The notes beneath the pieces are model-generated. The model was not told where the DNA came from, ran no database searches, and saw only the letters and a program-made list of their open reading frames with translations. Positions 6,871 through 17,532 of a DNA stretch of 43,775 nucleotides are shown piece by piece. Position 1 is the stretch's first letter. Every line of letters starts with the position of its first letter. The DNA comes from Candidatus Poseidonia sp. (GTDB taxonomy: Archaea; Thermoplasmatota; Poseidoniia; Poseidoniales; Poseidoniaceae): contig JAKMEE010000001.1 of the NCBI GenBank assembly GCA_022426155.1, positions 1 through 43,775 on the forward strand. Direction: 5' to 3'. The translations under genes and the position numbers were made by a program.

Positions 6871-9800
6871 TCAGTCATCCTTGCGTCGGCTCAAGCCAAC
6901 ACCGAAGGCGATGGCCAATAGTGTACCCACTGAACCAAGTGATGGCAAGAAACCACCATCTGCTTGTTCAACGATTTCACTGGGCAGAATTGTTACCGTG
7001 CTGGTTACGGGAGACCCACTATCGATCCCATCGGATGGTGTGATGATACAGGTCACCTGGTCACCAGATGTGAATCCACTGCTGAGCGTTCCGTCTGGGC
7101 TACTAACGGCTACGCCGTTGACTGTCCACGTTGTGGTTGATGCATCCATGTTGTTCTCGGCATCGCTGTAGGTGTACAAGCATGTCAGGAAATCAGCGTC
7201 AGTCGGGATCACCGGACTTATACTCACGGCTGTAACAGAAGGTGCGGTATTGGTCGGTGGAGTGGTTGTGTTACCACCAGTGTTGTTACCACCAGTGTTG
7301 TTACCGCCAGTGTTGTTACCGCCAGTGTTGTTACCGCCAGTAGTAGAATCATCACATTCCCAAGCTGCTTGGTCAAATACTTCGGCAGGAATATGTCCAG
7401 ACCAATTTGCATCGTCTTCAAACACAACCATTGGGTTTACGAAACCAATGATATCTGACATTGGATTATAACTGAAATGATCTAACTGAAGGCCATTACT
7501 GTTTTTGACAGACCAACTGGTAATATTGTTGAAATCACCTGCATTGCCTCCTTCGGAATACACCCATGTGGCAAATACATTCACTGTATGGCCGTTGTTA
7601 ACGGAACATATTTGTGACAATTCATAAGGCGAATTATCAGACATTGGTGGTGCAGGGAAATGCAGAGATAATGGGAATTGTTCAGCAATTCCAGACCCGT
7701 GGATTCCAGATTGGATGTAGACAAACATAGCTCCATGGGTATTGTTGTTGCCGCCAGTGTTGTTTCCTGTGCCGTTTCCACTGGTACTGTTGCCCATTTG
7801 GATGTAGGTTGTATCGTCTGAAATCCAACCTGCACTCGAATCTGACCAGAGGTATGCTTCAAACGTATACAAACCATCTTGTAGATTGCTAATGGTGCTG
7901 TTTTCAATACTGCTGTTGTACATGGCCGTCCACGATGCATTGCCGTTGTAAACAACGCTACCCGTGGAATCTCGCAAGGTCCAGTCCATGCTGTAATTTG
8001 TTCCAATGTTCAAATTGGCACTCTCAAACTGGACATAGACATCGGTTCCAGAAGTCCACACCTCCAATCCTTCGGATGTTTCTGATGCGTATCCCGAATG
8101 GTCAATGTCAATGTATTCTGAGAGTTGAGAATTGTTTCCGCCAGTGTTGTTGCCCCCAGTGTAATTCACGGTAACAGGCGTCATGGTCATGAGCACATTA
8201 TTGTTGTTCGTGAAATTCAAACCGGTCACGAAGGCATTGGAATCGTTCGGGTCGAGTTCTTCGTAGGCTTCAATTCCTCGAATGGAAAGGCGGTCAACAC
8301 CGAATTCTTCGCTAAATGTATGCGTGAACCCTCCGTAAAGGTCAGTATTGGTATCGTACCAACCTGAGCCATTCCACATGAAGAGATCAAAGACGTCATC
8401 ACCGTATCCGGTTGGAAGAGTAACGGAGGTGATGTTAGGGCCACTCCAAACGATGTAGTCGTATCCGATAGCGACCACAGGGTCAATCCAGAAGGTGCCA
8501 CCAGTTTGATTAAAGACAAACCAGAAGGCATCAGGATTGTTTTGACAATCCTGAATTGTCACCGTTGTAGCATTCCAATTAATGTCCGAGCAGTTGAATG
8601 GCATGAGCGGATTGCTCGGACTTGAACCAGGTGCTGTCGAGGTATTGGAAATGACCGTGAAGTTGAACCAACCTTCGTCAACAAAGGTGTTAACTCCACT
8701 TTGGTTGAGGTTCCATTCGACATAAAAAGTGTACATGCCAACTTCAAGGTTACTCCAGCTCTGATATTGAGTCCCTGGGGGATGGCCGGATTGGACGTAA
8801 GTATCCATCGTGAAGGTGGAATAATCGTTTGCTGACGGGCCAGAGAGGTATCCTGAGAAGGAATGGTTCATCTCGTAAAGGGAACACATTGGGCGGTAGG
8901 TGCCAGTGAATGTTTGGTTTTCGTACAAGAGAGGCATGTTCATTTGGTAAGCCCCGACGAGAATGTAAGAGTAATTGAGGTCGTAATAACATCCAGTATT
9001 ATTGCCACCGCTGTTATTACCACCGCTGTTATTGCCGCCTGAGTTATTTCCTCCATTTGAGGAGCACTCCATGTTCACGCCAAATTCGAATCCAACATTG
9101 TCAAAAAACATCCCATCGTCATCATCGGTAAGATTGAACGATACGAAATAACAAGAGGTTGACAAAGTGTTTGATGGAATTGTGAATACATCGAGTTGTG
9201 AAGGGCCGTTAGGGCTGAACGTATGCCCCATGGACCAGACGATGGACGTGGTGTTGTTTGCTGCATCGTGACCGTACACATCTGCCGTTACATTGTAGTT
9301 AATGCTCATGTTCCATACTAAATCACTCGCAGCATAAATGAGGTCGATGGCATCGGATGAACTGTAATTTGAAGAATTCGTCCATGCATCAATCGATTCC
9401 ATGACGCCGCTGTTATTGCCACCGCTATTATTGCCACCGCTGTTGTTGCCGCCAGAAGCATTCCCAATTTCCATGTAGGACATGTCACTGTCAAGGAAAT
9501 TTCCTGAAGCGGTGTAAAGATAGATTTGGAACATATATTGGCCATCTGCGAGGCTGGTAAAGTTGACATTCTCAGTGCTGGAATTGGTATAAGCATACCA
9601 TGATGCGTTTCCTTGGTTGATGATCTGTGTAGAGGACCACCCTGACAAGAGCGCCCATGTCATGGAATAGTTGGTTTGATTGAGATTTGAACTAATAAAT
9701 TCACCACCCAAGGCAGCACCAGATGCCCAGGTGCCCATCGAGCCCGCTTGGTTGATGGTTGAGTATCCAAGGAGGTTGATGTTGATACTTTCCGAAGGCG

Positions 9801-10338
9801 TAGAGTTGTTGCCTCCCCCACCACTGGTCATGTTCATGACAACAAATGATTCGTAATCAGTGTCCACCAATTCCCACGTCATTGAACTGTTATTGTACCA
9901 ACTGAAGGTGACATCGAAAGAATAGTTGCCTACTGGCGAGGTCGAGAGGGCACTGGAGTTTAGGTTGGTCTGGAGATACACGCTTGTTGTGACAGTCCAA
10001 TTGTAAGAACCGACATCTATCGATGTGTTGGAGTCTTGATTATGGATGTTCCAATCAATCATCATTTGGGCGTTGTAAATTCCACAGTTGGTTTGAATGC
10101 CTCCAAAGAACGTGTCGCCAATGTCGTATACAGAATACGATGAATAGGCGGCAACGGAGGCATTAGTTAGATCATGCCCGCATCCGCTTGAGGAGTTATT
10201 TTGGGAGCGCGCTCCGGATTCAAGAATGGGTCCATTCCATGTATCTTCATTGGGTTGGCCCGGTGTCACATAGAGTGCAGCAGACATGGCTTGGATGAAA
10301 AACAAAAATGCAAAAGTCCAGGCAGTACGGGTGTTCAT
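6871..10338 (-). CDS. Large N-glycosylation-rich cell-surface protein with GGNN(S/T) linkers
   Basis: The 1155-residue protein has an N-terminal signal peptide (TAWTFAFLFFIQAMSAALY). It then carries a series of beta-sandwich-like modules separated by flexible GGNNSGGNNS or GGNNTGGNNT linkers. Two modules are clear relatives of each other, sharing NYSMxW, GNASWxAxxNSSxEN and LxDGxYxFxxYLxS. A PKD/Ig-like module (TAPSVTAVSISPVIPTDADF) precedes the end. The C-terminus has GGFLPSLGSVG, a hydrophobic helix and RRKDD, a tripartite anchor or sorting signal. Dozens of NxS/NxT sequons suggest dense N-glycosylation. An S-layer-like or adhesive role is inference. It starts 66 bases below the radical SAM gene and has its own promoter candidate. 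Confidence 0.82.
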   Translation of the reverse strand: MNTRTAWTFAFLFFIQAMSAALYVTPGQPNEDTWNGPILESGARSQNNSSSGCGHDLTNASVAAYSSYSVYDIGDTFFGGIQTNCGIYNAQMMIDWNIHNQDSNTSIDVGSYNWTVTTSVYLQTNLNSSALSTSPVGNYSFDVTFSWYNNSSMTWELVDTDYESFVVMNMTSGGGGNNSTPSESININLLGYSTINQAGSMGTWASGAALGGEFISSNLNQTNYSMTWALLSGWSSTQIINQGNASWYAYTNSSTENVNFTSLADGQYMFQIYLYTASGNFLDSDMSYMEIGNASGGNNSGGNNSGGNNSGVMESIDAWTNSSNYSSSDAIDLIYAASDLVWNMSINYNVTADVYGHDAANNTTSIVWSMGHTFSPNGPSQLDVFTIPSNTLSTSCYFVSFNLTDDDDGMFFDNVGFEFGVNMECSSNGGNNSGGNNSGGNNSGGNNTGCYYDLNYSYILVGAYQMNMPLLYENQTFTGTYRPMCSLYEMNHSFSGYLSGPSANDYSTFTMDTYVQSGHPPGTQYQSWSNLEVGMYTFYVEWNLNQSGVNTFVDEGWFNFTVISNTSTAPGSSPSNPLMPFNCSDINWNATTVTIQDCQNNPDAFWFVFNQTGGTFWIDPVVAIGYDYIVWSGPNITSVTLPTGYGDDVFDLFMWNGSGWYDTNTDLYGGFTHTFSEEFGVDRLSIRGIEAYEELDPNDSNAFVTGLNFTNNNNVLMTMTPVTVNYTGGNNTGGNNSQLSEYIDIDHSGYASETSEGLEVWTSGTDVYVQFESANLNIGTNYSMDWTLRDSTGSVVYNGNASWTAMYNSSIENSTISNLQDGLYTFEAYLWSDSSAGWISDDTTYIQMGNSTSGNGTGNNTGGNNNTHGAMFVYIQSGIHGSGIAEQFPLSLHFPAPPMSDNSPYELSQICSVNNGHTVNVFATWVYSEGGNAGDFNNITSWSVKNSNGLQLDHFSYNPMSDIIGFVNPMVVFEDDANWSGHIPAEVFDQAAWECDDSTTGGNNTGGNNTGGNNTGGNNTGGNTTTPPTNTAPSVTAVSISPVIPTDADFLTCLYTYSDAENNMDASTTTWTVNGVAVSSPDGTLSSGFTSGDQVTCIITPSDGIDSGSPVTSTVTILPSEIVEQADGGFLPSLGSVGTLLAIAFGVGLSRRKDD
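7271..7342 (-). repeat. 15-bp minisatellite encoding GGNNT linkers
   Basis: Four full copies and a partial fifth of ttaccaccagtgttg (or ttaccgccagtgttg) stand head to tail. On the minus strand each encodes GGNNT. The near-identity of the copies makes slippage likely. Confidence 0.85.
8995..9053 (-). repeat. 15-bp minisatellite encoding GGNNS linkers
   Basis: About four degenerate 15-base units (gttattgccaccgct type) encode GGNNS and GGNNT between two domains of the surface protein. Third-codon positions vary more than in the 7271 cluster, so this array is probably older. Confidence 0.75.
9406..9453 (-). repeat. 15-bp minisatellite encoding GGNNS linkers
   Basis: Three 15-base units of the same kind as at 8995 encode GGNNS linkers. 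Single or double units occur also near 7741-7766 and 8140-8160 in the same gene. Confidence 0.75.
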
Positions 10339-10404: not shown

Positions 10405-12192
10405 TCATTGTGTGTACGGTTTCACGAAGTAGGGTTTAAATTCTTCTCTGAAGGTAATGTTTGTCGCAGTAAACCAATCTTCAGCACTTTGGTAGGGAGG
10501 GACATGATTTGTTTTTCGTTGGGCTTTGACTCTGGAACTGATTAAATTCCACGCCGTCTTATCGCCAATTCCAGGGATGGCTGAAAGTTGTTTTTCGGTC
10601 ATCTGGTTGTGGTCAAGGTTCACTTCCATGCCTGTAATCGAGCGAGCACCATGGCCTGTTACGACCACATCGGATTGGGTCTCAAGGGGTATTTTGTATT
10701 CCACCCCAACCAAGATTGGGTAGGCGCCGATTTGTCGTCCAAATGTGATGCCTGCCTTCCCATGAATTTGCTGCCCAGTGTGTTCTTCAGTCTGATGAAC
10801 TGGAAGTCGTGTACGCCCATCGTGGGTTTCCCAATGGACTCCACGGATTACTCCACCGAGAGGGAATAATTCCTCCAGCAAGGGCCTGTCAATCGTTTCT
10901 CTGCAGGCTTCTTTGAAGGAATTGAAAGCCGAGGTTGGTATTTCCTGAAACCCCTCACCCTCGACTTGGCGGATGTTGATTCTGCGCAGTAGCAACCCCT
11001 CCTTCCGAATCTCATGCAACAAGTCGAGATTCATTTGGTAGGTCGCTTCAGACTCTCCGTTCAATCCTGCAATGAAGTTCAGCCCGGGCAGTAATTTGGG
11101 TAAGCCACGTTCGCCTCGAACACTGCCGTGTTTATTGATAAGTCGAATGGCCTGTTTCAATTGGCCTGGGTCGCAATTCAACCAATTGGCTTCGTGAACG
11201 CTTGGGTCGGCAGACTCCAATCCAAAGGACAGAACAGCTCCGTCGGAGAGGGTTTCAACGAGTGTTTTGGTGATGGCCTCTGAAGGTTCAAGATGTTCGG
11301 CAATGATGGAAGGGTTGCCGTTATCGGTGTGGAGAATACCAAGACGTTCATCTTCACGAAGGCCGTGCAATAAGGCTGCTATTGGTTCAGGGTTGGGGAC
11401 GGGATATTCGAGTTCTTTCACCCCATCAGCCATGTAGGTGTAGGTGTCAGTCATGCCGCCGAGTCGCACATGGTGTACGCCTGAATCATGAGCTCGGCGA
11501 ACCTCTTCGATGATGTCCTCGGGTTCTCTCCAAATCGGGACGCCCTTCTTCGGTTCAATGCAGAATTTACATCCACGTTTGTATCGGACGCATCCCTGAT
11601 ACACTTCCACTTCATAGGTGAGAGGGCCGGGTCGTTCTTCTGTTCCAAGGTCAGGGTGTTCAGTTACGGCCTTGCTGATCGCACCTGCCTGAGCCCATGC
11701 AGTCCACTGTTCTCCCGTTCTTCTTGCATGGCTCCATTGGCCCTTTGAGAGAAATCCATTCAATGTGGCATCGGTATCTTGGACGGCTAGAAACAGGTTG
11801 GCACGCAAGGGGGTCCAACCCTGTTGTTTCCATCCACGAATGGCCCAGCCTCCAAAGAGTGCAGGCATACCATGAGGGAGCATCCGAATGATGTGTTGTG
11901 TTTCATTGAGTGAGATCGGTGTGCCTCTCAGATACCTTCCGGGGACAACGGCTCCAGCTATGCACACTACACCAAGTGATCGATTGACCAAGTCCTCGGT
12001 CCTTTCAGGTTCGTTTTTGAGCATGTGTCGCCATTGGTCGATGGTGATGTAGGTGTAAGGCGTTGACGTTGTTTCGAAAACCCCACACACATAGCGTATG
12101 TGAAAGCCCACGTAGGGTGGAACGCCGAAGGCTGCAGGCTCATCTTCGTAGCCGTCAATGACAAGCCATTCGGATGCAAATGACTCAACCAT
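10405..12192 (-). CDS. Radical SAM protein with C-terminal helix-hairpin-helix (COG1031-like)
   Basis: The 595-residue protein has an N-terminal domain (1-190) of unknown fold. A radical SAM core follows, whose cluster cysteines sit in YQGCVRYKRGCKFC (Cys201, Cys208, Cys211). This spacing is wider than the canonical CxxxCxxC. The downstream core features RLGGMTDTYTY, SFGLESADPSV and LNFIAGLNGES fit the radical SAM barrel. A C-terminal helix-hairpin-helix (SAIPGIGDKTAWNLI, ~537-551) suggests nucleic acid contact. This layout matches the archaeal family described as radical SAM with a C-terminal HhH motif, whose reaction is unknown. It starts 26 bases after the Csl4-RRM gene on the same strand, so an RNA- or DNA-linked modification is a reasonable guess. 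Confidence 0.85.
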   Translation of the reverse strand: MVESFASEWLVIDGYEDEPAAFGVPPYVGFHIRYVCGVFETTSTPYTYITIDQWRHMLKNEPERTEDLVNRSLGVVCIAGAVVPGRYLRGTPISLNETQHIIRMLPHGMPALFGGWAIRGWKQQGWTPLRANLFLAVQDTDATLNGFLSKGQWSHARRTGEQWTAWAQAGAISKAVTEHPDLGTEERPGPLTYEVEVYQGCVRYKRGCKFCIEPKKGVPIWREPEDIIEEVRRAHDSGVHHVRLGGMTDTYTYMADGVKELEYPVPNPEPIAALLHGLREDERLGILHTDNGNPSIIAEHLEPSEAITKTLVETLSDGAVLSFGLESADPSVHEANWLNCDPGQLKQAIRLINKHGSVRGERGLPKLLPGLNFIAGLNGESEATYQMNLDLLHEIRKEGLLLRRINIRQVEGEGFQEIPTSAFNSFKEACRETIDRPLLEELFPLGGVIRGVHWETHDGRTRLPVHQTEEHTGQQIHGKAGITFGRQIGAYPILVGVEYKIPLETQSDVVVTGHGARSITGMEVNLDHNQMTEKQLSAIPGIGDKTAWNLISSRVKAQRKTNHVPPYQSAEDWFTATNITFREEFKPYFVKPYTQ

Positions 12193-12218
12193 GTGTCACA
12201 GGAAGGAGGATGGCTCCT

Positions 12219-13694
12219 TCAATCCTTCTTGCTTTGAGGCTTGCGACGACGCTTGTTGCCTTTGTTTTCTTCTTCCCGGAGGGCTTGAAGTTCGCGAGAT
12301 GATTTTCCGCCACCGTCTCCCGAAGAACCCCGTCCTCGGTTATTGCCGCCTTTGGCCTTGGCTTTGGCGATGTCAACCTTGATTTTTCGTCCTTCGAGTT
12401 CAGTCCCTGAGAGCGTTGAAACTACTGCTTCGCCATTATCCGTCTCTTTGATGAAAGCAAAAGCAAACCCTTTGGATTTACCAGAGGGGTCAGTGGCCAT
12501 CACAACTTCGCTGACGGTCGCATGAGGTGCGATGAGGGCAGTGATTTGTTCCTGTGTTGCGCTGAATGGAAGGTTTCCGATGTAGAGTTTTAGTCCTTCA
12601 GGGTCTTTTCTATTTGGCTTCTTCTTCTTGTCATTGCTATCTGCGTCACGAACACCGATTCGTCGCCCGTTGATTCGGTGACCGTCCAAGGCTGCAACAG
12701 CAGTGTCCGCCATGCCCTTTGAGGCGTAGGTGACGAACCCGAAGCCACGGTTGGCTCCAGCATCATCCACGAGGACGATACAATCGGTCATTTCACCATG
12801 AGGCGTGAAGAGTTCTCTCAATTGATCGGTGCCAACTTCTCGGGGAAGTCCGCCAACGAATAGACGGCAACCTGGTGCCGCTTTTTGAGGACGACCACCT
12901 CGACCACCTGCTTGTCCTTCGAATTTGAAATATGTGCGTTCTCGGCCGTCTTCACGTACATCTGCGGCGATGAAGGTCGCTCGACCAGCAGGACCTTTGG
13001 CAAACATGGCTTCTGCTGCCGCACCCCAACGCTTTCCCGCATTGTTGAGGGCGCTTGCTCCTTCCTCAAGTTCAGCCCATCCTGCGCCATAATTGTCGGC
13101 GAGAGCTCGATAGGATTGATGGCCACACGTTGAACAAATCACGTTCCAATCGCCGTCAAGATGCGCTTCAAGCGTGCTTCCACAAGGGGGGCAAATTGCG
13201 TGCAATACGCCACAGTCATCACGGTCTCGGAAGTCCAAACGAACCACAGGTTCAACTTCCTTGACAAGTGCGCGGCACACGTCACGGCGACGCATTGCAT
13301 CGGCGGTTTGATGCATGAATCTGTCAACCAATCCAGTGACAAAGAATTGACCGTACAAGTGTTGAGGTTGAATAGAGCCCGTTTGTCCTTCAATGGCCAA
13401 AATCATGGCCTCACCGTGTTTTTCGTTCAACTTCACAACTTCACACAAAACGGTGTCTCCAATGCTTGGACTAACAATGGGTTTTGTAGGTGAGACCATG
13501 ATGGTTCCATCGCTGATTTCGACTTGACCAATCACCGTTGAGATGATGTGGCCATCCGATAGGACAGTTCCTTCACCGAGTGTATGTTGACCTTCTTGGC
13601 CGATGATGCTTCCTGGGGTGACGAGGCTCGCCGTCATGTATCTCATTCCTGTAGCAAGCATGGCCCGAGGTGGGACGCACACTGTTTCGCTCAT
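12219..13694 (-). CDS. Exosome Csl4-like protein fused to two RRM domains
   Basis: Numbering from the TTG at 13721 (the ATG 13694 preferred here is residue 10). The N-terminal Csl4 domain (~31-80, VTPGSIIGQ then GQVEISDGTIMV) and the S1-like domain (~84-165) are followed by the Csl4 zinc ribbon CPPCG/CSTCG (Cys177, 180, 196, 199). A linker of about 80 residues comes next. RRM1 (~286-358) has RNP2 LFVGGL and RNP1 RGFGFVTY. RRM2 (~378-452) has RNP2 LYIGNL and RNP1 KGFAFAFI. The tail is Gly/Arg- and Lys-rich. Archaeal Csl4 normally ends after the zinc ribbon at about 190 residues and caps the RNA exosome. The RRMs would add RNA binding. ATG 13694 avoids overlap with the methyltransferase gene; the TTG alternative overlaps it by 4 bases. 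Confidence 0.9.
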   Translation of the reverse strand: MSETVCVPPRAMLATGMRYMTASLVTPGSIIGQEGQHTLGEGTVLSDGHIISTVIGQVEISDGTIMVSPTKPIVSPSIGDTVLCEVVKLNEKHGEAMILAIEGQTGSIQPQHLYGQFFVTGLVDRFMHQTADAMRRRDVCRALVKEVEPVVRLDFRDRDDCGVLHAICPPCGSTLEAHLDGDWNVICSTCGHQSYRALADNYGAGWAELEEGASALNNAGKRWGAAAEAMFAKGPAGRATFIAADVREDGRERTYFKFEGQAGGRGGRPQKAAPGCRLFVGGLPREVGTDQLRELFTPHGEMTDCIVLVDDAGANRGFGFVTYASKGMADTAVAALDGHRINGRRIGVRDADSNDKKKKPNRKDPEGLKLYIGNLPFSATQEQITALIAPHATVSEVVMATDPSGKSKGFAFAFIKETDNGEAVVSTLSGTELEGRKIKVDIAKAKAKGGNNRGRGSSGDGGGKSSRELQALREEENKGNKRRRKPQSKKD

Positions 13695-13717
13695 GTGAGG
13701 CGAGGCCTCCCTCCTTT

Positions 13718-14395
13718 TCAACCCCCCTTATTGGATTCATCATCGTCATCCTGTGGAAGACGAGCGTCACCAGAGCGGTGAATACGCCAACACAAGACAT
13801 CTGTGAATGCTTTCCGTTTGGCATGATGGGCATATTGTGCAGGAAGTCGGAACTCGGTTCGCAAGAGGTGCTCACTTTCCCAACCCGCATCACGGATTAA
13901 GCCAGAAAGATGGCCAGCACGCTCATGATGAAGGACATGAATCACATCGACTTGAGATTCCAATGCGAGGTCAAAGAATGGGCGGTCGGCTTTGGGGACT
14001 TGAGCCCCCCATGGAGGATTCATCACGATGAGGGAAGCATCTTCCAAGGGAATAGGATCACGGCCAACATGAGCCTGATGAACCGTCCATCGCCCATGAA
14101 ATTCAGGATGACTGGATAGGTTGGTTTGAATGACTCCAACGGCTGAGGCATCTGATTCAACAAAGATTACATGGCTTGCTCCCATGAGCAAGCAACCAAT
14201 ACCGAGTACACCGTTTCCACTCCCCAGGTCGGCAACAACACGATTGCTGATACCATCGATTTGGTCAATGGCTAGGGTCCAATATGCGGCGAGGTCTCCC
14301 TCGGTTGCGTATTGTTCAAGTTCAACGTGAAGACAAGGATGCGGTTGAAGTTTGGAGAGTTGGATGGCCAAATGTTTGGGCCGCATCCACCTCAC
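13718..14395 (-). CDS. METTL5-like N6-adenine RNA methyltransferase
   Basis: A SAM-dependent methyltransferase of COG2263 type. The LEQYATEGDLAA motif (26-37) resembles the METTL5 LEQYxT signature. Motif I is DLGSGNGVLGIG (56-67) and the catalytic motif IV is NPPWG (126-130), the NPPF-type tetrapeptide of N6-adenine enzymes with Trp in place of Phe. METTL5 methylates an rRNA adenine in eukaryotes, and the archaeal relatives are presumed to do similarly. The stop lies just before the Csl4-RRM start and the start overlaps the small zinc-ribbon gene by 4 bases, so the three are probably co-translated. In eukaryotes METTL5 needs the zinc-containing partner TRMT112. Confidence 0.85.
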   Translation of the reverse strand: MRWMRPKHLAIQLSKLQPHPCLHVELEQYATEGDLAAYWTLAIDQIDGISNRVVADLGSGNGVLGIGCLLMGASHVIFVESDASAVGVIQTNLSSHPEFHGRWTVHQAHVGRDPIPLEDASLIVMNPPWGAQVPKADRPFFDLALESQVDVIHVLHHERAGHLSGLIRDAGWESEHLLRTEFRLPAQYAHHAKRKAFTDVLCWRIHRSGDARLPQDDDDESNKGG

Positions 14396-14580
14396 CAGCG
14401 TGGGGGTTGTTGGTACTGATTGGCTTGTTGAGCCTGCATTTGAAGGCGAATGCCGTGAATTTGTTGAGCCTCAATACGAAGACGTTGAAGCAAAGGCTCT
14501 CCAGGTTGTTGATTGCCGCAAAATCGGCAAAACCGAGTACCATCTGCATGTTGTTGACCGCAATTGATACAGAAACCCAT
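14392..14580 (-). CDS. Small double zinc-knuckle protein
   Basis: The 62-residue protein begins MGFCINCGQQHADGTRFC and continues RFCGN, giving two CxxC pairs that form one zinc ribbon at residues 4-21. A Gln-rich tail follows (IEAQQIHGIRLQMQAQQANQ), ending QYQQPPRW. It has no membrane segment. Its stop overlaps the methyltransferase start (ATGA, 14392-14395), a sign of translational coupling. The function is not known; a partner or adaptor for the downstream RNA methyltransferase is an inference from the coupling. Confidence 0.75.
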   Translation of the reverse strand: MGFCINCGQQHADGTRFCRFCGNQQPGEPLLQRLRIEAQQIHGIRLQMQAQQANQYQQPPRW

Positions 14581-14625
14581 ACGACTCCCTCATTCTCCCC
14601 TTGCAGTGATTTGATTTGAACCTTC

Positions 14626-15654
14626 TCAACCCAAGGATGCCATTTCAAGCAGGATGGGCCATGTCTCAAGTCCTTCAGCCAGTGCTCGTTCACCGATGTC
14701 TTCCCATCGGGGGTCGTCCATGAATTCAGCAGGTTCAATCCCTGCATCAATGAGTTCTTGGAAAAAGGATCGAACTTCTCTTTCAAGTTCCGAGAGGATT
14801 TCTTCTTCCTCAATAACTTCGGGTAGCGCAACATCGTCTTCTTCCGAGATTTGAGTTGGAACCTCAGGGTCAGACGCAACCGGTTGCTCGAATGGTGATT
14901 CTTGTGCTGGCGTAGCGCCAGGTGGTAGGGGTACGGAGGTTCTCGAAGGTACGACATAGGGTTCCGGTTCAACGGATGGTTCCTCTGAGGGTTCAGACTC
15001 AGTGTTCTCAATTTGGGCTTCGACAGGTGCTGGGACTGGAGTGGGTATGGGTTCGGGATCAGCTACTGGAGTTGAAACTGGTTTTTCCAAACGCCCTACG
15101 CCCAAGACCTCGGCTTGTTGGCGAGCCATTTCAGCGGCGGCTCTCCGTGGGAGGCTCACGAAGCATTTTCCAGGAAGGGAATCTGGAGGGAATGGAAGGA
15201 AATAGCGATCCAATTTTGGCAAAGATGGATGGCGGAAACATAAGGTTTTGATCGTTTCAAATGGTCGCTGTGAAGGAAGGCCAACAGAGAACGGGGTGGA
15301 GGAGATTTCAATGGAACCTCGCATCCATCCTTCAGTAGTGATTAGGTGTTGCATCCATATTCCTAAATCCGCTGTGGCAATATCAACAAATTGGAAGGAC
15401 GCAGCTCGTGGGTCAAATCCTTGTTCAACGAGCAACGGTGCCTCTGCTCGAGGCCGATGAAACACTGTCATAACGGGCTGACCATGTTCGACCATATCAC
15501 CATGCAGCTCCATCATTTTACGTTCCTTCCGGGGGCAAAGAAGCAAGATGACCATTCGGGTAGCGTTTGAGTCCCAAATTTCACCCCAACGCTCTATTGC
15601 TTCAAGCGTTAATTGGCCGATGGTCATGTCCGGAATCATTGCTGTAATACCCAT
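14626..15654 (-). CDS. Hypothetical protein with Pro/Glu-rich linker
   Basis: I do not recognise this 342-residue protein. Residues 1-175 look globular, with mixed alpha/beta character (RMVILLLCPRKERKMMEL; FVDIATADLGIWMQHL). Residues ~195-280 are a disordered Pro/Glu/Ser-rich linker (PIPTPVPAPVEAQ; EPSEEPSVEPEPYVVPS). Residues ~285-342 form an acidic helical C-terminal domain (EEEEILSELEREVRSFFQEL). No signal peptide or membrane segment is visible. A linker between two small domains suggests a scaffold or adaptor. It sits between asd upstream (62-base gap) and the zinc-ribbon/METTL5/Csl4 genes downstream (45-base gap) on the same strand. In-frame ATGs at codons 6 and 10 are alternative starts. 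Confidence 0.65.
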   Translation of the reverse strand: MGITAMIPDMTIGQLTLEAIERWGEIWDSNATRMVILLLCPRKERKMMELHGDMVEHGQPVMTVFHRPRAEAPLLVEQGFDPRAASFQFVDIATADLGIWMQHLITTEGWMRGSIEISSTPFSVGLPSQRPFETIKTLCFRHPSLPKLDRYFLPFPPDSLPGKCFVSLPRRAAAEMARQQAEVLGVGRLEKPVSTPVADPEPIPTPVPAPVEAQIENTESEPSEEPSVEPEPYVVPSRTSVPLPPGATPAQESPFEQPVASDPEVPTQISEEDDVALPEVIEEEEILSELEREVRSFFQELIDAGIEPAEFMDDPRWEDIGERALAEGLETWPILLEMASLG

Positions 15655-15716
15655 GCTCTCACCGAATACAAGGGGGCGGTTCCACCCTTTAGGGATAGGG
15701 GTGTTTCGTGATGGAT

Positions 15717-16778
15717 TTAGAAGAGGTCCATGCTTGCTGCAAGTTCTGCCAAGTAGATGACACCGCCTGCAGCCCCTCGTAACGTGTTGTGTGAATAGCC
15801 TTCAAAACAGACTGTATGTGGGTTTGGACAGGAAATCGCTCCCACAACGACACCCATTCCTGCTTGAAGATCGAGCGCAGGGTTGGGTGCATCTTCAAAC
15901 GACAGGCCGTCGCTAAAGAGATGCTTTTCTATGTCAATTTGTTCAACGATGTGCAATGGAACAATCGGCGCACTTGGGTGTGATTGATCCATAAATGAGG
16001 CATTCCATGCTTCTAGGCATGCTTTTGCCGAGTTGGGCGTGACTGCGTGGTCAAAGGTGGCCTCGACAAAAACATGGTGCCCGTCGTTACGTCGGACTCG
16101 CTCACAACGGATCGATATTGGTCCATCCCAGGCGAGAATGTGCTTCAATTCTGCAGCAGTTTTTTCGGCTTCACCAGGGATCTCTGAGTTGAATTGGTGT
16201 TTGAGTTCATTTATCTCGTCCATCAATCGATAACCTCCGCCAGAGATTGCCTGCTCACTGCGCATTTTGACCTGAGTCAAACCAAAGGTTTGGTTCAGGG
16301 GTGCAAGGGGCAGGATGAGTGGCAACAGCGTGCAATTGGTAGCGCATGCGAGGGGGTATCCCACTTGGCCAAAAGATCTCAAATCATGGGAGTTGATTTC
16401 TGGTATGACTAACGGAACACCCTCCTTGCCTCTGTGGGCGCTTGCATTTGAGAAGACAGCAATGCCCGATGACGCCCAATGTGGCTCAAGTGTCTGTGCT
16501 TGTTCTGAAGGCAATGCCGAAAACGCCACGCGGATTCCCATCTCAAACAAACGTTGAGGAAGTCCATGGTCATGGATATCCGCGATTTGGAGGGGTGGGA
16601 ATTGAGGTCGTGGGTCGTCAAGGCGCCATGGAATGTCCAACAAAGCACTCCCCGCACGTTCGGAACTTCCCGCGACTGCACTGAGCGTGAACATTGGATG
16701 ATGCATAAGCCGTTGTTGAAGACGTTGAGCCACCAGGCCACTGGAACCCAAGACCACGGCTTGGTATCGTTCCTGCAT
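15717..16778 (-). CDS. asd: Aspartate-semialdehyde dehydrogenase
   Basis: The enzyme reduces 4-phosphoaspartate to aspartate-4-semialdehyde, the branch point to lysine, threonine and methionine. Numbering from the upstream GTG 16799: the NADP-binding loop is VVLGSSGLVAQ (15-25), the catalytic cysteine is Cys156 in CATNCTLLP, the substrate loop SGGGYRL (186-192) follows, and the second catalytic region is RVRRNDGHHVFVEA with His241. The order and length (~353) match the archaeal/fungal branch. ATG 16778 (MQERYQAVVLG) is preferred because it begins right at the Rossmann strand. The GT2 gene ends 46 bases upstream. No other lysine or threonine gene is in the window. Confidence 0.87.
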   Translation of the reverse strand: MQERYQAVVLGSSGLVAQRLQQRLMHHPMFTLSAVAGSSERAGSALLDIPWRLDDPRPQFPPLQIADIHDHGLPQRLFEMGIRVAFSALPSEQAQTLEPHWASSGIAVFSNASAHRGKEGVPLVIPEINSHDLRSFGQVGYPLACATNCTLLPLILPLAPLNQTFGLTQVKMRSEQAISGGGYRLMDEINELKHQFNSEIPGEAEKTAAELKHILAWDGPISIRCERVRRNDGHHVFVEATFDHAVTPNSAKACLEAWNASFMDQSHPSAPIVPLHIVEQIDIEKHLFSDGLSFEDAPNPALDLQAGMGVVVGAISCPNPHTVCFEGYSHNTLRGAAGGVIYLAELAASMDLF

Positions 16779-16824
16779 GATGGACCGACTCACCCGCACC
16801 CTTTGAGGCCTTTTGTAATGGAAT

Positions 16825-17532
16825 TCAGAGAAGAGCTTCGGGGAAAAGGCGACGAGTCAATAACTTGCGAAAAATCCGCCATCCATCTGCAGTTGAATTC
16901 AATTTCGCGACTCCGATACGCCGACGATAAGAAATCGGATGGAAGTGGAAAGATACATCTCTGTGCACCATGGATGCAAACATTTCTGCTTCAATTTCGA
17001 ATGAAGTGCTGTTGAGTATGAGGCGGTCAATGCTGCTGCGATTAAAAGCCCAATACCCCGAGCATACATCTTTCGTTGTGATTCCAAACATAGCAGTTGC
17101 AGACCATGTCAACAAATGATTTCCGAGAAAATTGAAACGACTCATCGCGCCTTCCTGAATGTTGCCACCTAAACGATTTCCAATCATAACATCGGTGTGA
17201 TTCAAACCCTTCAGAAGATGGAGTATTTCACGAGGGTGATAGGTCCCATCAGCGTCTAACATGACTACTTCATCCGCATTGCGCGCTATGGCCGTGCGGA
17301 ATCCATGGCGAAGTGCCGCCCCCTTCCCCTTTCCTTCTTGGCGAAGAAATACGACTCCATATCGCCCAGCTACGTCTGCACTTTCATCCGTGCTTCCCCC
17401 ATCCATGACAATAATCGTGGTTTTGTATCCTCGTGAAGACAGAGCCTTGCTTGGCATGTTGTTGAGTACCCATTCTAATCCCTGCGCCTCATTGAGCACA
17501 GGAAGCAGGACGATGAGGTGCTTCATGGTCAT
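16825..17532 (-). CDS. Family 2 glycosyltransferase, polyprenyl-phosphate sugar synthase type
   Basis: This 235-residue GT-A fold enzyme begins with LIVLLPVLNEAQGL and has VMDGGSTDESADVA (donor nucleotide binding), RQEGKGKGAALRHG, and the DxD-type metal site MLDADGTYHP. NRLGGNIQEGAMSRFN and DVCSGYWAFNRS match dolichol-phosphate mannose/glucose synthases. There is no C-terminal membrane domain, so it resembles the short, soluble or peripheral DPM1-like forms. Its ATG overlaps the stop of the GT-C-like gene (ATGA at 17529-17532), so the two are coupled. The likely role is to make a lipid-linked sugar that the membrane partner uses for surface glycosylation. Sugar identity cannot be read. Confidence 0.87.
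   Translation of the reverse strand: MTMKHLIVLLPVLNEAQGLEWVLNNMPSKALSSRGYKTTIIVMDGGSTDESADVAGRYGVVFLRQEGKGKGAALRHGFRTAIARNADEVVMLDADGTYHPREILHLLKGLNHTDVMIGNRLGGNIQEGAMSRFNFLGNHLLTWSATAMFGITTKDVCSGYWAFNRSSIDRLILNSTSFEIEAEMFASMVHRDVSFHFHPISYRRRIGVAKLNSTADGWRIFRKLLTRRLFPEALL

Follow-up and report, generated by a model that had tools for sequence, protein, structure and literature searches.

An order-wide fusion of the exosome subunit Csl4 to RRM domains in Poseidoniales, a candidate built-in arm for RNA capture

How the archaeal exosome chooses its substrates is poorly understood; eukaryotes use separate cofactors that carry RNA recognition motifs (RRMs). A gene in a 43,775-nucleotide stretch of DNA from Candidatus Poseidonia sp. 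(the window, by which we mean this whole stretch) raises the question of whether one archaeal lineage has joined RRM-type recognition to the exosome itself. An earlier note on this DNA had placed the exosome subunit Csl4 and two RRMs in one frame, a claim that Pfam, NCBIfam and an alignment with Archaeoglobus Csl4 (2BA1_A) all bear out; its coordinates, 12219–13694, are correct and the strand, left unstated there, is minus.

The gene and its Csl4 part

The gene is a single unbroken frame (12219–13694, minus strand). Csl4 comes first; a segment of 59 residues and a Gly-rich linker separate it from the two RRMs, and a basic tail closes the protein. Its parts and neighbours are as follows.

10405–12192, minus strand: downstream neighbour, a radical SAM protein (PF04055 43.2 bits, over cut-off)
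12219–13694, minus strand: whole Csl4-RRM1-RRM2 fusion gene, 491 aa from ATG 13694
12222–12356, minus strand: basic Gly/Lys/Arg tail, residues 447–491 (SSRELQALREE motif, conserved in alignments)
12357–12596, minus strand: RRM2, residues 367–446 (RNP2 LYIGNL, RNP1 KGFAFAFI; PF00076 47.2 bits)
12597–12638, minus strand: inter-RRM linker, residues 353–366 (median dN/dS 0.258)
12639–12869, minus strand: RRM1, residues 276–352 (RNP2 LFVGGL, RNP1 RGFGFVTY; PF00076 67.5 bits)
12870–12908, minus strand: Gly-rich linker, residues 263–275 (60% identity, median dN/dS 0.27)
12909–13085, minus strand: post-zinc-ribbon segment, residues 204–262 (most conserved part; no known domain)
13086–13214, minus strand: zinc ribbon, residues 161–203 (Cys168, Cys171, Cys187 and Cys190 invariant)
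13215–13469, minus strand: Csl4 S1-like part, residues 76–160 (inside the NF034126 match and the 2BA1_A alignment)
13515–13625, minus strand: Csl4 N-terminal domain ECR1_N, residues 24–60 (PF14382 31.6 bits, cut-off 27)
13718–14395, minus strand: upstream neighbour, a small-domain methyltransferase with NPPWG (PF05175 35.4 bits, over cut-off)

The true start is probably Met20 (13637) rather than the ATG at 13694, because all 35 proteins in the alignment, among them the one from the window, have Met20. The radical SAM neighbour has a possible C-terminal helix-hairpin-helix, for which HhH models score under cut-off. Further away on the same strand, we noted what looks like a secreted or surface protein (6871–10338, 1155 aa), in which GGNNSGGNNTGG linkers recur and a hydrophobic stretch lies at the C-terminal end, and a 342-aa Pro/Glu-rich protein (14626–15654) with no Pfam match over cut-off. 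Scanning of 12100–16900 gave one promoter-like site (3.2 expected) and 12 terminator-like sites (5.5 expected), and a search of a defence-system library gave no match.

Residues 24–203 match the NCBIfam Csl4 equivalog NF034126 at 91.4 bits (hmmscan) or 94.4 bits (genome search), only just passing the cut-off of 90, and residues 24–205 align with residues 3–177 of the 179-residue 2BA1_A (E 1.6e-11). The likeness to archaeal Csl4 (2BA1_A; NF034126/PRK09521) extends over the N-terminal domain, the S1-like part and the C4 zinc ribbon; unlike the Archaeoglobus fulgidus protein, which stops after the zinc ribbon, this one goes on for about 290 more residues with two RRMs. The S1-like part scored 13.0 bits against EXOSC1, under cut-off, and had no Pfam S1 match in the Pfam scan. 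The four zinc cysteines (Cys168/171/187/190) are invariant, both in 12/12 proteins aligned across two families of the order and in 35/35 from the window's own family. In the window's draft genome (1.99 Mb, 48 contigs, 89% complete) the single full Csl4 match is the fusion gene; a second, weak match at C10:30916-31149 proved to be Rrp4, not another Csl4. Judged from sequence, the protein is most likely the Csl4 subunit of the Poseidoniales exosome, into which it would assemble.

Recurrence and two architectures within Poseidoniales

A Csl4-family match was found in 190 of the 193 genomes of the order, with a family model that also weakly picks up Rrp4. Among the 150 best rows listed from these 190 genomes, the Csl4 frame is at least 400 aa long in 146 (median over the 150, 472 aa). 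The four short frames were each accounted for: G081 (308 aa) starts at base 292 of its contig, its locus L021 being shortened on that side; G174 (394 aa) and G183 (371 aa) run off contig ends, the former after RRM1 and the first part of RRM2, the latter after a zinc finger and the first part of an RRM; and in G090 (213 aa) the frame breaks where the sequence has ambiguous bases, the RRM lying in the next frame.

A contig scan with patterns taken from the Poseidoniales Csl4 part returned 263 relatives, of which the 80 that were kept, here called the named loci, carry titles naming only Poseidonia, Poseidoniaceae, Poseidoniales, Euryarchaeota or euryarchaeote; within these 80 the closest named relatives of the window protein (up to 79% identity) are from Poseidonia or Poseidoniaceae. 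The fusion is present in all 80 as fetched: 79 show both RNP1-like motifs, and the remaining locus is cut where its contig ends. Absence from close relatives, which the earlier note had named beforehand as refuting its claim, was not seen, and the fusion recurs throughout the order. An assembly join or frameshift artefact, which a draft in 48 contigs might invite, is refuted by this recurrence (the same architecture in 80/80 named loci and 146 of the 150 rows listed, with three contig-end cuts and one broken frame behind the four short frames), and we give it practically no credence.

RRM_1 was found in 184/193 genomes. Two of the nine without it (G109 and G162) have no Csl4 match and six (G157, G165, G176, G192, G015 and G191) have matches of E 4.8e-11 or worse; because the Csl4-family match is absent or weak in them, the fusion gene is probably missing or truncated in these eight drafts. 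The ninth is G183, with its Csl4 gene cut inside its RRM. In G145, an RRM lies in a 126-aa frame with no Csl4 match.

The surroundings recur with the gene: where the flank is long enough, the gene immediately upstream encodes a methyltransferase in 74/74 loci and the one immediately downstream a radical SAM protein in 76/76 (L112 left out of both counts). Among viral contigs, 80 stretches matched the search pattern and none encoded a relative.

The survey of Poseidoniales proposed in the earlier note upheld an order-wide Csl4–RRM fusion and restricted the two-RRM form to one family. That family (f1), the window's own, is by inference the Poseidoniaceae; the other (f2) is by exclusion the Thalassarchaeaceae. 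Two RRM matches per genome are usual in f1 (exceptions: G029 with three, G066 with four, G081 with three, G174 with one and five genomes with none) and one per genome in f2 (exceptions: G023 with two and four genomes with none). The radical SAM gene also adjoins the fusion in the f2 loci L137, L138 and L143. In the three f2 proteins scanned, a CxxC-x17-CxxC treble-clef finger sits between the conserved segment and the RRM, scoring 37.9–49.9 bits with PF23477 (cut-off 27) and 40.4–50.0 with TIGR04272 (cut-off 36). The segment after the zinc ribbon aligns across f1 and f2, with N217, R222, W223, D245 and R247 invariant in 12/12 proteins, which suggests that a single C-terminal extension, with an RRM already in it, existed in an ancestor and later diverged into the two forms.

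RNA-binding domains, exosome partners and function

The Pfam RRM_1 model matches two stretches of the window protein, which scores 106.6 bits as a whole (cut-off 20.7), and no further RRM_1 match was found in the draft genome of 1.99 Mb. The positions expected to contact RNA are retained in both RRMs, as the earlier note's motifs had implied: F279, F318 and F320 of RRM1 and Y371, F410 and F412 of RRM2, six aromatics in all, are invariant in 35/35 aligned f1 proteins, and the sister-family RRM (four proteins) has F, F and F at the RRM2 positions.

A single AlphaFold2 run on the whole protein, with a 35-sequence alignment, gave low overall confidence (mean pLDDT 57.2, pTM 0.28). RRM1 is modelled as beta-alpha-beta-beta-alpha-beta (pLDDT blocks 79–87) and RRM2 with RRM topology (blocks 76–84); outside them the S1 part is moderate and the remainder poor, with residues 195–274 below 50. 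Structure prediction, a check the earlier note had suggested, thus supports the expected fold of both RRMs and leaves the parts other than the RRMs and S1 poorly modelled. Foldseek against the PDB ranked tandem-RRM structures first (Sxl, HuR, HuD, hnRNP A2/B1), with no Csl4 among the best 50 matches listed.

Selection was gauged with Nei–Gojobori dN/dS on 35 sequences as the median of pairwise ratios, which are rough because dS is near saturation (medians 1.2–1.7) and many pairs were unusable (168–355 of 595 used). Medians were 0.114 for the Csl4 N-terminal domain plus S1, 0.081 for the zinc ribbon, 0.046 for segment 204–262, 0.067 for RRM1, 0.127 for RRM2 and 0.25–0.27 for linkers and tail, which places RRM1 under stronger purifying selection than the N-terminal and S1 parts. 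RRM2 is more divergent (62% identity). Segment 204–262, at 86% mean pairwise identity, exceeds the RRMs in conservation and has no Pfam match over cut-off. The best-conserved stretch of the protein thus has no predicted fold: it may be a docking motif, or its low model confidence may reflect the limit of a shallow alignment. In the tail, eight Poseidoniaceae-type proteins share a conserved [ST][SA]RExxAxxEE motif that is absent in four aligned sister-family proteins.

The expected partners are encoded in the same genome. Contig C10 holds a cluster of psmA, SBDS, Rrp4, Rrp41, Rrp42 and L37Ae, in which Rrp41 scores about 325 bits (325.2–325.5), over cut-off, and Rrp4 (154.8, cut-off 200) and Rrp42 (231.7, cut-off 280) fall under theirs, both being near full length and beside Rrp41. 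Archaeal DnaG is present (350.9 bits, cut-off 300). Across the order, DnaG was found in 64/67 genomes and an Rrp41/Rrp42 pair was indicated, by at least two RNase PH matches, in 37/40. The other three, G007, G023 and G028, have one RNase PH match each though the Csl4 fusion is present. Draft gaps are the probable cause: in G007 only 99 bases of contig remain beyond the SBDS match, and G023 and G028 also lack SBDS; for these last two this is not proven. The window's genome also encodes, on contig C2, a bacterial-type RNase PH (L136:2818-3639, minus strand; TIGR01966 247.8 bits, cut-off 141.5).

Scores were compared with those from five genomes of another order of the same class (f3), probably Marine Group III. 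Csl4 has diverged in the window's genome (94.4 bits vs 132.8–158.5 in four f3 genomes), as has DnaG (350.9 vs 461.9–490.3 in the four f3 genomes listed), and Rrp41 is near normal (325.2 vs 327.5–343.3 in five f3 genomes). Poseidoniales DnaG (L150:961-2193, plus strand) also scores below most of the remaining phylum on the archaeal model, in parallel with Csl4. Divergence of Csl4 and DnaG out of proportion to the catalytic ring would fit a remodelled cap; it could also be general drift. Rrp4 and Rrp42, both without an f3 comparison, score low too.

Work on Sulfolobus offers a close parallel. In S. solfataricus, Csl4 shows no strong binding of poly(rA); its N-terminal domain anchors it, DnaG requires it, and the poly(A) preference is supplied by Rrp4 and DnaG (PMC4227792, in excerpt). 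When the N-terminal RNA-binding domain of DnaG was engineered onto the Csl4 C-terminus (Csl4-NT), the product bound poly(A) and the exosome degraded poly(A) faster (PMC4227792, in excerpt). The Poseidoniales protein resembles Csl4-NT in carrying an RNA-binding module on the Csl4 C-terminus, with an expected gain of RNA capture; it differs in that Csl4-NT, on that partial account, is an artificial Sulfolobus construct with a DnaG domain, and the Poseidoniales fusion is natural, order-wide and built with RRMs.

Since that construct embodies the same design, we propose that here RRMs make up a tethered arm that captures RNA above the pore. As in other archaea, the ring of Rrp41 and Rrp42 would be the docking site of the Csl4 N-terminal domain, with the S1 domain and zinc ribbon forming part of the cap; the conserved, probably unstructured segment and the Gly-rich tether would hold the RRMs and basic tail above the entry pore, where the RRMs, by binding single-stranded RNA, would concentrate it locally and pass its 3′ ends into the pore to be phosphorolysed or tailed. 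In favour are the arrangement of the domains, conservation throughout the order, the signs of purifying selection, the retained RNA-contact residues and co-occurrence with exosome genes. Several things count against it: the most conserved part is the segment before the RRMs, not the RRMs themselves, RRM2 being the more divergent, and 3/40 genomes of the order have the fusion without an Rrp41/Rrp42 pair, probably through draft gaps. On balance we consider it reasonably probable that Csl4 with its own RNA-capture arm serves as a hard-wired substrate-capture subunit of the exosome, with assembly, RNA binding and substrate selection as putative steps; built-in targeting by the RRMs, probably without a separate helper protein, is plausible.

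Some RRMs bind proteins instead of RNA, and protein-binding RRMs often lose their aromatic RNA-contact positions. An arm that chiefly recruits proteins or ribonucleoproteins (e.g. DnaG, ribosomes or the Nop5 methylation complex) rather than selecting RNA would suit segment 204–262, which resembles a docking motif in being conserved yet of low confidence in the model, as well as the unusual divergence of DnaG, a protein that needs Csl4 in Sulfolobus (PMC4227792, in excerpt), beside a near-normal Rrp41. With all six aromatic RNA-contact positions invariant, we think such an arm unlikely. A second job outside the exosome, in mRNA storage or translation control like that of bacterial single-RRM Rbp proteins, seems to us unlikely as well: no unfused Csl4 was found in the draft genome, which keeps its exosome operon, so that if the exosome needs Csl4 the fusion has to supply it, even if a separate Rbp-type RRM gene in the other order of the class, a Gly-rich tether that could act by itself and the three genomes with the fusion but no Rrp41/Rrp42 pair, probably draft gaps, lean the other way. 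Improbable, finally, is a Csl4 part that has left the exosome as a mere scaffold for RRMs, with Rrp4 alone as cap, as its diverged score and the reconstitution of Rrp4-only caps with other archaeal proteins (PMC4227792, in excerpt) might suggest, given a near full-length Csl4 match, four invariant zinc cysteines, a median dN/dS of 0.114 over the N-terminal and S1 parts and the retention of DnaG, which depends on Csl4 in Sulfolobus.

Capture by a fused arm would have working counterparts in eukaryotes, where Nrd1–Nab3 are RRM cofactors of the exosome and RBM7 contains an RRM. RBM7 in the NEXT complex likewise brings RNA to the exosome (PMC5146272, in excerpt), a likeness of working for which we claim no homology. 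The eukaryotic RRM cofactors are separate proteins acting via other factors, unlike the Poseidoniales RRMs, which are part of a core cap subunit. In this natural covalent fusion, RNA recognition of the RRM type is linked straight to the exosome cap, which mirrors a fusion made in the laboratory as proof of a similar principle (PMC4227792, in excerpt). We found no description of a natural Csl4–RRM fusion in the open-access literature, and one may be in print elsewhere; we rate this known subunit and known domain as a new, order-wide combination. RRM-guided targeting is testable with four or five purified proteins.

Unfused relatives and the source of the RRMs

Within the Thermoplasmatota sample, the Csl4–RRM fusion is confined to Poseidoniales. 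Csl4 is complete and unfused in 4/5 f3 genomes (frames 185–214 aa; the fifth match is cut at a contig start) and adjoins the same kind of methyltransferase in the two genomes read. Elsewhere in the phylum, too, Csl4 ends without RRMs, unfused and mostly in frames of 185–225 aa, as the earlier note had held of known archaeal Csl4. Long Csl4 frames in six other Thermoplasmatota (G213, G333, G266, G353, G275 and G221) were examined as possible fusions and none shows an RRM, the extra length being mostly open frame ahead of the Csl4 start; this check took in those six genomes and left out G209, G355, G205, G256 and G208 (297–360 aa). The same note's view of RRMs as uncommon also holds: RRMs occur in 17/174 Thermoplasmatota genomes outside the class, always in frames of 81–158 aa, too short for a Csl4 fusion.

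Every f3 genome (5/5) has one separate single-RRM gene. Two f3 RRMs tested scored 115.6 and 110.9 bits with the bacterial Rbp model NF058537 (cut-off 100), and one tested against plasmids was 60% identical to an Ideonella protein. The fused RRMs are like bacterial Rbp proteins in having an RRM of about 79 residues and unlike them in context, the Rbp-type RRMs standing alone in frames of 81–158 aa in Thermoplasmatota. NF058537 is the best-scoring NCBIfam model for the window's RRM2 and for the sister-family RRM tested; taken singly, fused RRMs scored 47.1 (window RRM1), 52.6 (window RRM2) and 87.1, all under the cut-off of 100. As whole proteins, the window's scored 94.1, also below 100, and 3/6 relatives passed (L003 146.1, L006 138.3, L010 113.7). 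For the window's RRM1, the eukaryotic splicing-factor model SF-CC1 (50.1) and NF058537 (47.1) are about equal.

Phylogenetic analysis left the deep forks open. The RRM tree was built from 57 rows and 79 columns; its bootstrap had not settled and its eukaryotic branches are long. Separate clades were recovered for f1 RRM1, for the f2 RRM and for the f3 RRM, f1 RRM2 forming none; RRM1 grouped at 96/85 with one f1 RRM2 and the RRMs of hnRNP A2, amid long branches. The AU test rejected neither a clade of all fused RRMs (p 0.24), nor fused plus f3 RRMs (p 0.215), nor f1 RRM2 plus the f2 RRM (p 0.196); a single clade of all prokaryotic RRMs came near rejection (p 0.067). With these alternatives standing and Rbp-type genes occurring alone in the class and phylum, the earlier description of the RRMs as eukaryote-like is not established; a eukaryote-like origin is possible for RRM1. 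A simple reading would have csl4 fused with a previously separate Rbp-type gene in the Poseidoniales ancestor, which the tree neither shows nor rejects. We offer more tentatively, as a doubtful extension, that an RRM arm fused once in that ancestor took substrate selection over from the DnaG/Rrp4 poly(A) system, with segment 204–262 as a new docking element to the ring or to DnaG.

Among 141 Thermoplasmatota genomes outside the class, seven show no clear Csl4 and no clear Rrp41; a standalone RRM is present in six of these seven (G211, G225, G230, G252, G255 and G258; not G219) vs 10 of the 134 others.
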